Assembly: GCA_014239715.1 (NCBI GenBank)
Contig: JAAZYJ010000389.1
Location: forward strand, 1-9,239
Direction: 5' to 3'
Length of the DNA stretch: 9,239 bases
From: Flavobacteriales bacterium
Lineage (GTDB): Bacteria > Bacteroidota > Bacteroidia > Flavobacteriales > Parvicellaceae
Positions 4,122 to 8,673 of this stretch are shown piece after piece. Each line of letters begins with the position of its first letter. Position 1 is the stretch's first letter. A model generated the notes under the pieces. It was given only the letters and a program-made list of their open reading frames with translations. It searched no databases and was not told the DNA's origin. The position numbers were made by a program, and so were the translations under genes.

Positions 4122-4242
4122 TCTCTTTAATTTAAACGAGTGCATTTTTTTGCTTCGTTTTGTGTCAATAAAAAGAGAGAAAAACTTCGACCGAACAAGA
4201 TCTGTTCATACATCGATGCTTTTATCCCGAAAGCTTGATCTT
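4119..4242 (-). promoter_or_regulatory. Riboswitch expression platform and leader of the B12 operon
   Basis: Immediately after the aptamer, a hairpin GCTTT-CGGGATA-AAAGC (4234-4218) presents loop bases CGGGA that are complementary to TCCCG in the P5 loop of the aptamer (within 4342-4337). This is the L5-L13 kissing interaction expected of this riboswitch class. Further on, TCTCTTT (4178-4172) is an exact 7-base complement of AAAGAGA (4128-4122), which abuts the chosen ATG and may cover the ribosome landing site. AAGATC (4242-4237) can also pair with GATCTT (4202-4197), competing with a local GAACA/TGTTC hairpin (4207-4193). No clear terminator with a U tract was seen, so translational control is favoured, by inference. 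Confidence 0.6.
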
Positions 4243-4408
4243 TGCATGAGGCAGGTCTTCTGGCTTACTTCGCTGTGTTACGCCTTCCCATCCCTAAGAA
4301 CAGTGGCCACTTTAACACTCTTGAAGAATACAGCTACGGGAATAGCCCGGGATTCTCACCCGGTTCCCTTTTAATCCAAACAATTCATTGTTTTAGAACC
4401 AAAATGCA
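4243..4408 (-). ncRNA. Cobalamin riboswitch aptamer
   Basis: Read on the minus strand, the region carries the hallmark B12 box AGCCAGAAGACCTGCC (4265-4250). Upstream of it are GGGAA (4368-4364), a P4 stem CCGGG/CCCGG with loop TGAGAAT (4363-4347), a P5 hairpin GCTA-TTCCCG-TAGC (4346-4333), the conserved GCCACTG, and GGGAAGG. A closing P1 helix can form from TGCAT (4408-4404) and ATGCA (4247-4243). Order and spacing match class-I cobalamin riboswitches. It lies about 120 bases upstream of the first gene of the B12 uptake operon, in the right orientation to control it. Confidence 0.96.
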
Positions 4409-4411
4409 CGG

Positions 4412-4448
4412 TAAAGATAATAGAATCTCGTTTTAATCCGCCTCCAAA
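4412..4448 (-). promoter_or_regulatory. Candidate promoter of the B12 operon
   Basis: On the minus strand TATCTTTA (4419-4412) matches seven of eight positions of the Bacteroidetes -7 consensus TAnnTTTG. It would start transcription close to 4406, right at the 5' strand of riboswitch P1. A TTTG occurs at 4448-4445, but the 25-base spacing is longer than usual, so the -33 assignment is weak. Confidence 0.4.
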
Positions 4449-4618: not shown

Positions 4619-6547
4619 ATGACTTGCCCGTCTAACACCCCATTAAGGGGACAAATACATGCATATCAAGGTGCATTGCGAAAGCGAATTGAGCCTTGGC
4701 TTGTTTTTGCATTTGTATTGGTGCATTTTGGTGGTGAAGCTCAAGTAATTAACGGATATGCCAAGGTAACTTCTATCGTTTCTAATACCCTTTCAGTAAG
4801 CGACATTGATGAATCTGGCGACTCATTTGAAGATGGTGAGAAAGTTATCATTCTGCAAATGCAGGATGATGTAATAGGCAGTAATACCTCAGACAATTCT
4901 AGCTTTGGAGATCTTGGCGCAATTTCTTCTGCCGGATTGTACGAAATCAACACAATTAGCTCACATACTGAATCTTTAGGGTCCCCGACAACAATAACAC
5001 TGGTCAATTCACTTAGTAATAGCTTCAATACAGGAACAAATTCTGCTGTCCAGATCATTACGTTCCCGACATTTGGAAGTCCCGATTACACAACAACTTC
5101 CAATATTTCAACACGCAAATGGGACGGCAACATTGGCGGAGTGACTGCTTTCAATGTTCCGGGAGTATTGACACTGGCTCATTCTATCAGTGCAACTGCT
5201 ACAGGATTGAGAGGAGCTTTTCCGAATTTGGGTGGTTCCGCAGGCTGCAATGGAAATACAGACTTTCGGTTTGTTTCGGATAACAATCACGCAGACAAGG
5301 GTGAAGGGATTTACAAATCAACCAACACTTCCTTTGTCGCCGGTATGGGTAAGATCCTGAGTGGCGGTGGCGGAGGGAACAGTCACAACGCCGGTGGAGG
5401 CGGAGGAGGAAACTTTTCAGCCGGAGGACAAGGTGGCCCGGGTTGGCCAACATGCAGTCCTACTGCCGGGGGGATTGGCGGCCTTGATCTTAGCGCACAC
5501 ATATCCTCCACACGCATCTTTATGGGTGGTGGCGGTGGCGCAGGAGAAGCAAATAACGGTGGGTCCCAGAAAGCCGGGAACGGCGGAGGAATTGTTCTGA
5601 TCAAAGCCACTGAAATTACATCAGGAGGCTGTTCCGGGGCACTAGATATTAGTGCTGATGGAGAGTCCGTAACAACGGGCAGCGGCAATGATGGCAACAG
5701 TGGTGGTGGTTCAGGAGGCACCATTGTATTTGAAATTGACACCTGGAGCATTGATCCTGCATGTCCATTGACGATCTCTTCCAGTGGCGGCAATGGTGGC
5801 GATGTGAATCACGGCGCAATGCATGGTGGCGGAGGCGGTGGCGGATTGGGAGCGATCATTTTCTCCGGAGCGCAACCAACAGGTAACATTACGATCTCTA
5901 ACTCGGCCGGGACCGGAGGAATAAACTGCATTGGCTGCGGGAATGCAGACAGCGGTGCCGGATCAAACGGTTCAGGTGTCATCGAGAATGTTTCAGGGCC
6001 ATTACCCATAGAACTTTTGCATTTTCAGGCTCGAGCTCTAGAGAATTTGAAACAAGTTAAGCTGAGCTGGCAAACCTTGTCTGAGATCAACAATGACTAT
6101 TATACGGTTCAGCGTTCAAAAGACGGGTTCAATTGGCAGTGGGTTGCAGAAGTGGATGGCTCAACAATGTCGTTAGACCTTTTAAGCTATGCTGTCATAG
6201 ACGAATCGCCTTTGTCAGGCCGATCTTACTATCGCCTCAAACAAACAGACATCGACGGCCAGTTTTTCTATTCGTCTATAGTTGCAATAGAACTGTCCGA
6301 TGAGCTGGAAATGCCCATTCTCATCTTTCCGAATCCGGCAACAAACACCATTACTATACAGGCTAGCCCCGACGAAACAGACAGACTAAAATTATTCGAT
6401 ATTCTCGGAAGAAACGTAACTTCAAAAGTGAAATTTATTACCAGAAACAAGAATGAGACAATTGCTGATATATCCTCCCTCACCCCAGGATATTACATTG
6501 TCGTCTCACATTCTTTTGCCGTGAAGATCAAAAAACTTGGATGGTAA
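4619..6547 (+). CDS. Large secreted glycine-rich protein with T9SS type A sorting domain
   Basis: A 642-aa protein. From the ATG at 4619 it has a long polar N-terminus before the hydrophobic segment WLVFAFVLVHFGG, with cleavage likely near GEAQ (residue 42). A TTG at 4676 (codon 20), preceded by AAGGTG, would give a shorter and neater signal peptide and is a real alternative start. Residues about 43-245 are Ser/Thr/Asn-rich and probably beta-structured. About 248-455 is strongly glycine-rich, with several runs of five to six Gly (near 5361-5412, 5527-5541 and 5827-5845). About 461-560 is a module common in Bacteroidota secreted proteins (LPIELLHFQA ... SEINNDYYTVQRSKDG ... SYYRLKQTDIDG). The last ~78 residues are a T9SS sorting domain (IFPNPATNTITI ... 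LTPGYYIVV). It is probably a surface or matrix protein such as an adhesin; no enzymatic motif was seen. It is transcribed divergently from the B12 operon with no evident functional link. Confidence 0.85.
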   Translation: MTCPSNTPLRGQIHAYQGALRKRIEPWLVFAFVLVHFGGEAQVINGYAKVTSIVSNTLSVSDIDESGDSFEDGEKVIILQMQDDVIGSNTSDNSSFGDLGAISSAGLYEINTISSHTESLGSPTTITLVNSLSNSFNTGTNSAVQIITFPTFGSPDYTTTSNISTRKWDGNIGGVTAFNVPGVLTLAHSISATATGLRGAFPNLGGSAGCNGNTDFRFVSDNNHADKGEGIYKSTNTSFVAGMGKILSGGGGGNSHNAGGGGGGNFSAGGQGGPGWPTCSPTAGGIGGLDLSAHISSTRIFMGGGGGAGEANNGGSQKAGNGGGIVLIKATEITSGGCSGALDISADGESVTTGSGNDGNSGGGSGGTIVFEIDTWSIDPACPLTISSSGGNGGDVNHGAMHGGGGGGGLGAIIFSGAQPTGNITISNSAGTGGINCIGCGNADSGAGSNGSGVIENVSGPLPIELLHFQARALENLKQVKLSWQTLSEINNDYYTVQRSKDGFNWQWVAEVDGSTMSLDLLSYAVIDESPLSGRSYYRLKQTDIDGQFFYSSIVAIELSDELEMPILIFPNPATNTITIQASPDETDRLKLFDILGRNVTSKVKFITRNKNETIADISSLTPGYYIVVSHSFAVKIKKLGW

Positions 6548-7339: not shown

Positions 7340-7903
7340 CTAATTAACAACAAGCTCTCCTAAAAACGTAAGAGTCAATAAGGCAGATGTTAATGCCAGA
7401 ATAAGGAATTGTTGCTTAAACCCAAAAGGAAGTTCAAACTTTTTACCATTCAACAACAAGGTGATCAATGAAACTACTAGCAACCCCGACATAGGAATCA
7501 TCAATATTTCAGGAGCATACCAATAGATCATAATGGCTAAGCTCAACAATATGAAAGCACACAATGGAAGCCAAAAGAATTTTTCCCAGACAAATCTTTC
7601 CCTGATGCTGGCATAGAGGAATATAGGAGCTGAGCTGGACCCCAGAAGGTAAAGCCAGAAATATTCTGACCCGAACAATACTTCTAACAGTGGAGGGAAT
7701 AGTATCAGCGGAAACAACAGAAAAAATGCACTGACCAGCTTTCCAAAATTCTTAACAAAGAAAACCACGCATAATGTAGGCACCAACACTACGATAACCG
7801 GATATGGCAGCAGTAACCCATATTTTCCTTCAAAGAGATAAAGTAAACCATAGACTAAATACGTTAAAAAAAGAATGGCCGTTATCTTTGCGTCTCTCTC
7901 CAA
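7340..7903 (-). CDS. Multi-pass integral membrane protein of unknown function
   Basis: A 187-aa, very hydrophobic protein with six or seven likely membrane spans (roughly residues 7-24, 30-51, 55-73, 80-99, 108-128, 130-151 and 166-185) and short charged loops such as RERFVWEK (101-108). I do not recognise the family. The start is TTG at 7903-7901, giving MERDAKITAILFL; upstream codons in the frame reach a TGA at 7933-7931 without any ATG, so TTG is the best available start unless there is a sequence error. An out-of-frame ATG at 7914-7912 opens a 10-codon frame that overlaps this start. The gene lies 58 bases before the DUF218 lipoprotein gene on the same strand. Length, composition and lack of internal stops support a real gene; function is unknown. 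Confidence 0.68.
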   Translation of the reverse strand: MERDAKITAILFLTYLVYGLLYLFEGKYGLLLPYPVIVVLVPTLCVVFFVKNFGKLVSAFFLLFPLILFPPLLEVLFGSEYFWLYLLGSSSAPIFLYASIRERFVWEKFFWLPLCAFILLSLAIMIYWYAPEILMIPMSGLLVVSLITLLLNGKKFELPFGFKQQFLILALTSALLTLTFLGELVVN

Positions 7904-8045
7904 TTTGAATTCATAAAAGTAGCTGTAAAATCAAAACCGATCACACTACACCTGAAGAATGTGCAATGCATGAACTGGAGACGAATGATTTACGAATCAA
8001 TAGTTAAGATTGTTGAGAAAAGAATAAAAAAATAATAGTTATCAA

Positions 8046-8057
8046 CAATATATATTG
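8046..8057. repeat. Perfect 12-bp AT-rich palindrome
   Basis: CAATATATATTG is its own reverse complement. It lies about 65 bases upstream of the candidate sRNA promoter and about 140 bases upstream of the minus-strand membrane protein gene. It could be a regulator site or simply a low-complexity AT palindrome; nothing else in the window repeats it. Confidence 0.3.
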
Positions 8058-8120
8058 CTATATTCCAACTGGTTAAGCTATATCACAATGTTAAATTTGT
8101 GTTAAAGTTAATTACCAGCT

Positions 8121-8146
8121 GTAACATTTTTGACATTCTACGTTTA
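8121..8146 (+). promoter_or_regulatory. ECF-sigma-like promoter for the candidate small RNA
   Basis: GTAAC (8121-8125) followed after 15 bases by CGTTTA (8141-8146) resembles the -35 (GTAAC/GGAAC type) and -10 (CGT-type) elements used by ECF sigma factors. The same -10 region also reads TACGTTTA (8139-8146), seven of eight matches to the housekeeping Bacteroidetes -7 box TAnnTTTG, though without a TTTG at the proper -33 distance. Either reading places the transcription start near 8152, at the base of a strong hairpin. Confidence 0.42.
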
Positions 8147-8151
8147 TAAAA

Positions 8152-8226
8152 AGGTAACTGGTGTTTGAAACTAGTTATCTGTAAGGTGGGGGGAGCCGTT
8201 CCGAAAGGAACGGCTTCTTATTTTAT
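8152..8226 (+). ncRNA. Candidate small regulatory RNA of about 75 nt
   Basis: The stretch has three parts. First is a 10-bp hairpin GGTAACTGGT / ACTAGTTATC with loop GTTTGAA (8153-8179, all positions paired counting two G-U pairs). Second is a purine-rich linker TGTAAGGTGGGGGG (8180-8193) that could act as an exposed seed, although some of its Gs may extend the following stem. Third is a perfect intrinsic terminator. A promoter-like sequence sits immediately upstream. No plus-strand protein gene precedes the terminator: the neighbour to the left is on the minus strand and the longest small frame seen there is 21 codons (7970-8035). It does not match an RNA family I can name from memory. Confidence 0.5.
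8194..8226 (+). terminator. Strong intrinsic terminator, plus-strand orientation
   Basis: AGCCGTTCC (8194-8202) and GGAACGGCT (8207-8215) form a perfect 9-bp stem closed by a GAAA tetraloop and followed by TCTTATTTTAT. On the minus strand the stem is followed by a C run (CCCCCC), not T, so it acts on plus-strand transcripts and not on the flanking minus-strand genes. Confidence 0.85.
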
Positions 8227-8262
8227 CTGAGACCCCGTTTTCACTGCCATTGAGACCTGCTC

Positions 8263-8673
8263 CTATTGTTCCTGATTCTTTCCTTTCAGGATGCTGGCTA
8301 CTGAAATAAACAGCACTCCCACCAACCAAGCCCAAAAACCGATCAATAATGTTGATGAGTCTTCAATTCTGAATAACCAATACAAACCGGATGTCATAGC
8401 TTGTGCGGCAACAAAAAACGTCAATATCCTACTCTCATTCTTACGCCAGTATCTGATAAAAAGAAAAACTACCCAAACATTGGTAAGGATCATGAAGACA
8501 AATTCAAAATACTCCATCCCACTGTCCACATAAAACAGCATGCTTAAATTCAATAAGAATGCATAAAACCCATTCAGCTCAATATCAGAAGTAATATGAA
8601 CAGCAGGGATAAAAAATGAGGAAAGGAACAAGCCCATTCCAAATAAGACCAAGAATTTTGACAATAGTTTCAT
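8263..8673 (-). CDS. Small multi-pass membrane protein of unknown function, coupled to HMG-CoA lyase
   Basis: A 136-aa protein starting at ATG 8673-8671, with four to five hydrophobic segments (about residues 5-25, 34-50, 56-74, 83-101 and 108-129) and a polar, charged tail KGKNQEQ. I do not recognise the family; no catalytic motif is visible. The ATG overlaps the TGA of the HMG-CoA lyase gene as ATGA, so the two are almost certainly co-transcribed and translationally coupled. The context does not reveal a metabolic role, since a small hydrophobic protein next to a leucine-degradation enzyme could be incidental. About 36 bases after its stop lies the plus-strand terminator described separately; no terminator in its own direction was seen. 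Confidence 0.75.
   Translation of the reverse strand: MKLLSKFLVLFGMGLFLSSFFIPAVHITSDIELNGFYAFLLNLSMLFYVDSGMEYFEFVFMILTNVWVVFLFIRYWRKNESRILTFFVAAQAMTSGLYWLFRIEDSSTLLIGFWAWLVGVLFISVASILKGKNQEQ

Follow-up and report, generated by a model that had tools for sequence, protein, structure and literature searches.

A candidate small RNA with an ECF-type promoter and an invariant linker in an uncultured family of Flavobacteriales

The DNA analysed here (hereafter the window) is a stretch of 9,239 nucleotides from a Flavobacteriales bacterium (GCA_014239715.1, contig JAAZYJ010000389.1). On its minus strand, a cobalamin riboswitch (Rfam RF00174, 105.4 bits) at 4233-4419 is followed by three genes, at 4145-3135 (a DUF4465 protein with a T9SS sorting tail), 3138-2182 and 2266-212 (a TonB-dependent receptor), which together probably form a B12-uptake operon. 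A plus-strand gene at 4619-6547 encodes a T9SS-sorted protein whose N-terminal part matches the AgmC gliding protein model with 171.8 bits, below the NCBI cut-off of 275. The small RNA (sRNA) that is the subject of this report is predicted between two minus-strand genes, and the features of this region are as follows.

7340-7903, minus strand: divergent membrane-protein gene without Pfam or NCBIfam match; 13 of the 17 other sRNA loci have a relative of it upstream, on the opposite strand
8089-8105, plus strand: direct repeat TGTTAAATTTGTGTTAA with an 11-bp period, candidate activator site; GTTA-N7-GTTA occurs at 14 of 18 sRNA promoters
8120-8125, plus strand: predicted -35 element TGTAAC; GTAAC in 16 of 18 aligned sequences, GTACC in 2
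8141-8146, plus strand: predicted -10 element CGTTTA; GTT(A/T)A in all 18
8150-8224, plus strand: predicted small RNA, ends inferred; matched at 8118-8226 by covariance models R1 and R2
8152-8180, plus strand: hairpin 1, with a conserved core of 8155-8162 and 8170-8177
8178-8189, plus strand: invariant linker TCTGTAAGGTGG, candidate pairing region
8190-8226, plus strand: intrinsic terminator, from a scan for terminator sites
8263-8673, minus strand: convergent gene encoding a membrane protein of 136 aa that matches nothing in Pfam or NCBIfam, with a relative downstream at 5 of the 17 other sRNA loci

Read along the plus strand from 8118 to 8226, the segment consists of TGTAAC-N15-CGTTTA, hairpin 1, TCTGTAAGGTGG and AGCCGTTCC-GAAA-GGAACGGCT-TCTTATTTTAT. 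A spacer of 15 nt separates GTAAC (8121-8125) from CGTTTA (8141-8146). In the predicted fold, the arms of hairpin 1 are 8152-8162 and 8170-8180, with the core letters TAACTGGT and ACTAGTTA, and those of the terminator are 8194-8202 and 8207-8215, followed by TCTTATTTTAT. The plus-strand fold of 8150-8226 contains both hairpins and has a free energy of -37.5 kcal/mol versus -16.0 (sd 2.6) for shuffled sequences, none of 200 shuffles equalling it (z -8.25). Sequence and fold therefore agree with the promoter, hairpin and terminator that a preliminary description had placed at 8121-8226. Its observation that no plus-strand gene precedes the terminator was also correct, since the nearest upstream plus-strand ORF of at least 60 aa stops at 6547 and no plus-strand gene reads into the terminator. 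With 13 pairs, this terminator has the most pairs among the seven terminator-like sites in the window.

The preliminary description knew of no matching RNA family, and the same was found here: among the 4227 models of Rfam 15, none matched the sRNA segment at its gathering score, the sole match in the window being the cobalamin riboswitch mentioned above. Within 7900-8300 there were four sub-threshold matches only (E 0.14-3.9), and a scan of 10 of the 17 relative loci described below gave no matches. In a search of an open paper library, no paper was recognised as describing this RNA.

A neighbouring HMG-CoA-lyase-like gene puts the window near uncultured Flavobacteriales (best identity 67%), and a DNA search of 18 genomes with loci related to that neighbour yielded one clear relative, in Flavobacteriales bacterium LH_M76 (G003, E 1.8e-5), where promoter, hairpin, linker and terminator are ordered as in the window. 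Of the 39 genomes searched from one uncultured Flavobacteriales family, the covariance model R1, built from these two sequences, matches 17 with E-values of 2.3e-9 or better, the next match having 0.011; G003, as a training sequence, is among the 17 by construction, and the other 16 are independent. Five weaker matches were aligned and all are without the linker. Over 299 genomes of the order, R1 returned the same 17 and two weak matches, in G152 (6.5e-4) and G180 (9.2e-4), both again without the linker. Over the 40 genomes behind the named loci, R2 returned G003, followed by G001 at 0.0019 without the linker, and over 395 genomes of the class it returned G003 alone at E 1e-4, eight candidates being scored per listed genome, so that distant relatives may be missed. 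A weak match in G320 (E 0.063), which includes CTGTAAGGTGG, was judged to be due to chance, and a search of viral contigs with the 18-nt linker pattern in its long-form version gave no matches. By its sequence relatives, the segment looks like a member of a new, uncatalogued RNA family of one uncultured Flavobacteriales family, whose genomes are mostly drafts of unstated completeness.

The family alignment comprises 18 sequences, the window and its 17 relatives. The linker TCTGTAAGGTGG is identical in all of them, and the -10 element is preceded by C in 12 and by A in 6, so that a CGT box is not universal. Two forms of the RNA can be distinguished: in 14 sequences (the long form), loop 1 of hairpin 1 carries extra sequence, usually a hairpin, and the short form is found in the window and three further loci (L094, L098 and L101). 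The paired fraction of cells is 93.5% versus 88.3% in shuffled alignments, and the covariation score is 0.264 versus 0.176 in shuffles and at most 0.119 when slid. Overall, three of five covariation measures exceed every shuffle, and the two others are not clearly above the shuffles, namely pairs changed on both sides (5 versus 3.1, with 43 of 500 shuffles as high) and further pair types (13 versus 13.7). Hairpin 1, with 95.1% of cells paired, contains one pair changed on both sides, and the terminator, with 92.0% paired, contains four. De novo consensus folding recovered the same two stems, with both-sided changes at 7 of 20 pairs. The covariance search that had been proposed for 8121-8226 thus found compensatory changes in both stems and an invariant linker between them, a kind of conservation that would be expected of a stand-alone sRNA gene. 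A small protein gene was considered and rejected; in each of the 18 RNAs, the longest stretch that is open from an M, V or L spans 13-36 codons, and it differs between loci.

Where loci are syntenic with the window, identity amounts to 84-97% over 8144-8203 and to 9% past 8234. A second conserved stretch lies at 8024-8053 (71%), and a TAGTTATCAACAA block at 8009-8063 is kept among the window, G050, G051 and G052; the window has an imperfect inverted repeat (8009-8019/8039-8049) in this region, and the block is perhaps part of the promoter of the divergent gene.

Across the loci, the flanking genes and their strands vary while promoter, linker and both hairpins are kept, and an own promoter together with an own intrinsic terminator across changing contexts is, as far as the comparison of sequences goes, the arrangement of a stand-alone sRNA. 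A lack of conservation of hairpin 1 or promoter would have spoken against this claim of the preliminary description, but both are kept in 17 related genomes, and comparison strongly supports a stand-alone sRNA gene with an ECF-type promoter. This variation also bears on the idea that the hairpins are terminators or leader elements of the flanking genes. Such a role might be read from CCTTTTTATAA, which follows hairpin 1 on the minus strand of the window, and from a methyltransferase-like gene that lies 10-49 nt downstream on the same strand at L089-L092. The T run after the minus-strand hairpin is, however, not kept in the three other short-form loci, the minus-strand fold of the segment is ordinary (z -1.27), and the flanking genes change while the RNA stays, which makes this idea very improbable. 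Chance hairpins beside a chance promoter match would agree with the abundance of terminator-like sites, which are not enriched in the window as a whole (7 versus 7.8 in shuffles), but neither the depth of the plus-strand fold nor its conservation in 17 genomes fits with coincidence, whose probability we regard as negligible. On account of conservation across different gene contexts, both ideas were rejected.

The preliminary description had called the promoter ECF-like, and a search for ECF genes with the same promoter points to a candidate sigma factor. Four genomes with the RNA (RNA-positive) contain 69 places matching Sigma70_r2, from which 66 ECF ORFs were recovered by script in 64 of the 69 loci. 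GTAAC-N15-17-GTTA occurs within 200 nt upstream of exactly four of these 66 ORFs, and the four constitute one orthologue group with one member per genome. Each is followed by a gene for a protein with one apparent membrane segment, which is anti-sigma-like by eye and by position, and the one such protein tested had no Pfam match. When the orthologue was searched family-wide at E 1e-25, matches came from 19 of 39 genomes, including 16 of the 17 RNA-positive and 3 of the 22 RNA-negative ones, the latter three at 38-41% identity. With at least 50% identity, a cut chosen after seeing the list (the lowest orthologue has 50%, the highest paralogue 47%), 15 of the 17 RNA-positive genomes have it and none of the 22 RNA-negative ones does (Fisher p 5e-9); in G021 and G049 the RNA is present and the orthologue undetected. 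The promoter motif precedes 12 of the 15 orthologues versus none of 15 paralogue loci. The exceptions, G050-52, are the closest relatives and include those syntenic with the window; there, the strict motif is absent before the ECF gene and GTTAC-N15-(C/T)GTTATA is seen by eye instead. When presence of the RNA is placed as a label on the tree of the GldJ-family protein (30 genomes), it changes five times, at least four of these changes being forced by well-supported branches, and hence the co-occurrence of RNA and ECF gene is not one shared event. Although genes can be missing from drafts, the GldJ-family gene was detected in all but one of the 22 RNA-negative genomes. A promoter common to the sRNA and to an ECF gene that would be autoregulated is what an ECF-dependent sRNA should display, and this sequence comparison, together with the co-occurrence, supports both the earlier assignment of the promoter and control of the sRNA by this one ECF orthologue group.

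In another group of ECF genes, 10 of 13 upstream sequences show GCAAC, often as GGCAACC, where GTAAC would stand (L238, L243, L246, L249, L253, L254, L259, L266, L268 and L288). Their upstream sequences suggest that these genes may represent a second autoregulated promoter class.

In 17 genomes, GTAAC-N15/16-CGTTAYA is not enriched overall (40 sites versus 58 for the reversed pattern). Its sites include the starts of a GldJ/GldK-family gene and of a gene for a TPR/carboxypeptidase-regulatory protein. For the former, the family scan favours GldJ over GldK with a score below the NCBI cut-off. A count of the motif before this gene, which was prompted by the pattern match and is thus not an independent discovery, found it in the 450 nt upstream of the gene at 22 of 30 loci, and at 19 of these it stands 18-30 nt ahead of the start codon. 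Of the loci from RNA-positive genomes 13 of 14 have the motif, and of those from RNA-negative genomes 9 of 16. As for the gene of the secreted TPR/carboxypeptidase-regulatory protein, GTAAC-N-CGTTA is observed upstream of it in two lineages (L122, L123, L124, L102 and L104).

Since the motif stands before the GldJ-family gene also in RNA-negative genomes without the ECF orthologue, another sigma factor must read the site there. This raises the possibility of a wider T9SS/gliding ECF regulon that includes the sRNA and is served by several related sigma factors; the one that co-occurs would then be just one among them, or would travel with the RNA for some other reason. An ECF-type promoter class of Flavobacterium psychrophilum (SM6), which according to the accessible part of its description comprises porU, gldN, an ECF/anti-sigma pair and the sRNA Rfp11 (PMC9723704), speaks for such a regulon as well. 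However, what the RNA tracks is the ECF orthologue; the GldJ-family gene, by contrast, is found in 21 of 22 genomes that lack the RNA, and we therefore consider the wider regulon unlikely as an explanation.

Upstream of the sRNA promoter, the half-sites of the direct repeat stand in a fixed phase. Between the second half-site and GTAAC there are 9 bp in ten long-form loci (the value for L105 was read by eye, since the script had picked a closer GTAAC); in the four short-form sequences there are 20 bp, which is longer by one 11-bp period; GTTA-N7-GTTA is absent at L091, L092, L102 and L104. A repeat arranged in this way, with a period of 11 bp and a constant phase, suggests an OmpR/PhoB-type activator. 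When all fetched loci were searched for TGTTA(A/T)-N6-GTTA, it was listed neither ahead of the ECF orthologues nor ahead of the GldJ-family gene, and the 11-bp spacing is not enriched in the other fetched loci (11 sites versus 8-22 at six other spacings). For comparison with a Pho box, a literature search that included the accessible part of PMC4796936 gave no Bacteroidetes box.

With regard to function, the preliminary description had proposed the G-rich linker GTAAGGTGGGGGG as seed. This stretch does not form a single unit: its TCTGTAAGGTGG part is invariant, as noted above, and its last Gs vary and lie partly in the terminator stem, so that the whole G-run is unsupported as a seed and the candidate narrows to UCUGUAAGGUGG. 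A sponge for C-rich targets is likewise not borne out by the conservation pattern of the linker and the target searches. The invariant linker is the natural candidate for pairing. In the 17 genomes, CCACCTTACA has 61 matches, 17 of which are the sRNA itself, versus 101 for the reversed pattern, and none of the 19 inspected among the 44 non-self matches lies within 100 nt of a same-strand ORF start. When duplexes of the linker with 493 start regions from the fetched loci were scored, the best value was -19.0 kcal/mol, for another ECF gene, in G020. This gene was rejected as a target; the pairing is not kept, its homologues reaching -12.3 or weaker. Two linker-complementary stretches that lie upstream of the ECF gene in G020 are absent from G019 and G022. 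This partial search (one 10-mer in 17 genomes and 493 start regions) thus returned no conserved complementary site. Twelve invariant nucleotides combined with this result might indicate that the linker binds a protein, such as an RNA chaperone or a regulator, and that the RNA acts by titration; considering, however, that the search covered only 19 of the 44 non-self matches, a missed mRNA target is as likely a cause, and we judge titration to be improbable.

Taken together, we consider it probable, on comparative grounds, that the segment encodes a trans-acting stand-alone sRNA of an autoregulated ECF regulon, which would probably act through its linker. For this reading we infer transcription, the identity of the sigma factor, the activator and pairing by the linker. 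In the window the RNA would be about 75 nt long, and where a lineage has the extra inner hairpin its length would reach about 110 nt. The ECF sigma factor would transcribe both the sRNA and its own sigma/anti-sigma-like operon, an activator bound to the upstream direct repeat would probably help in transcription of the sRNA, and the invariant linker UCUGUAAGGUGG, displayed by the two hairpins, would most likely pair with a single mRNA or a small number of them, making the sRNA the post-transcriptional arm of the regulon in a manner comparable to the sigmaE sRNAs of enterobacteria. More tentatively, and with a probability well short of even, an autoregulated ECF module in Flavobacteriales could link the state of the envelope to the expression of T9SS/gliding genes and have the sRNA as its non-coding arm; the sRNA promoter would receive a second input from a response-regulator-type activator on the 11-bp repeat, so that the RNA would be made only when both signals agree. 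The significance of the locus lies in a new sRNA family, supported by covariance, from a part of Bacteroidota that has received little study. Candidates for its sigma factor and its activator site come with it, as does an invariant linker, and each of these can be put to a direct test.

Several known systems resemble parts of this arrangement, as far as the accessible parts of their descriptions go. Rfp11 of F. psychrophilum, a putative regulatory RNA, is, like the sRNA described here, a structured RNA in an independent unit with an ECF-type promoter that has a CGT -10 box, and its promoter class, as at the present promoter, also holds an ECF/anti-sigma pair and T9SS genes (PMC9723704). The two RNAs are compared here by description; R2 had no match in the one Flavobacterium genome searched with it (G324), and across 13 Flavobacterium genomes the GTAAC-type pattern shows no enrichment (6 sites versus 27 reversed). 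In PorXY-SigP of Porphyromonas gingivalis, an ECF sigma factor similarly reads T9SS genes (PMC4800418), but the accessible part of that description contains no sRNA, and here an anti-sigma-like gene comes after the ECF gene. BatR and BTnc353 of Bacteroides thetaiotaomicron are further conserved Bacteroidota sRNAs linked to the cell surface (PMC10861873); for BTnc353, an ECF/anti-sigma pair is a predicted target, whereas here the ECF factor is the predicted regulator, and BatR has a -7 box promoter, unlike the GTAAC/CGTT promoter of the present family. The sigmaE-dependent RybB and MicA of Salmonella (PMC1804206) belong to a different phylum and no sequence kinship is claimed, but the proposed logic is alike, in that an ECF sigma factor has a small RNA of its own. 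For base-pairing repression of surface-protein mRNAs, the mark of RybB/MicA-type sRNAs, the partial search above gave no conserved target. If the ECF link is true, such a pairing would be a solution that recurs in distant phyla.
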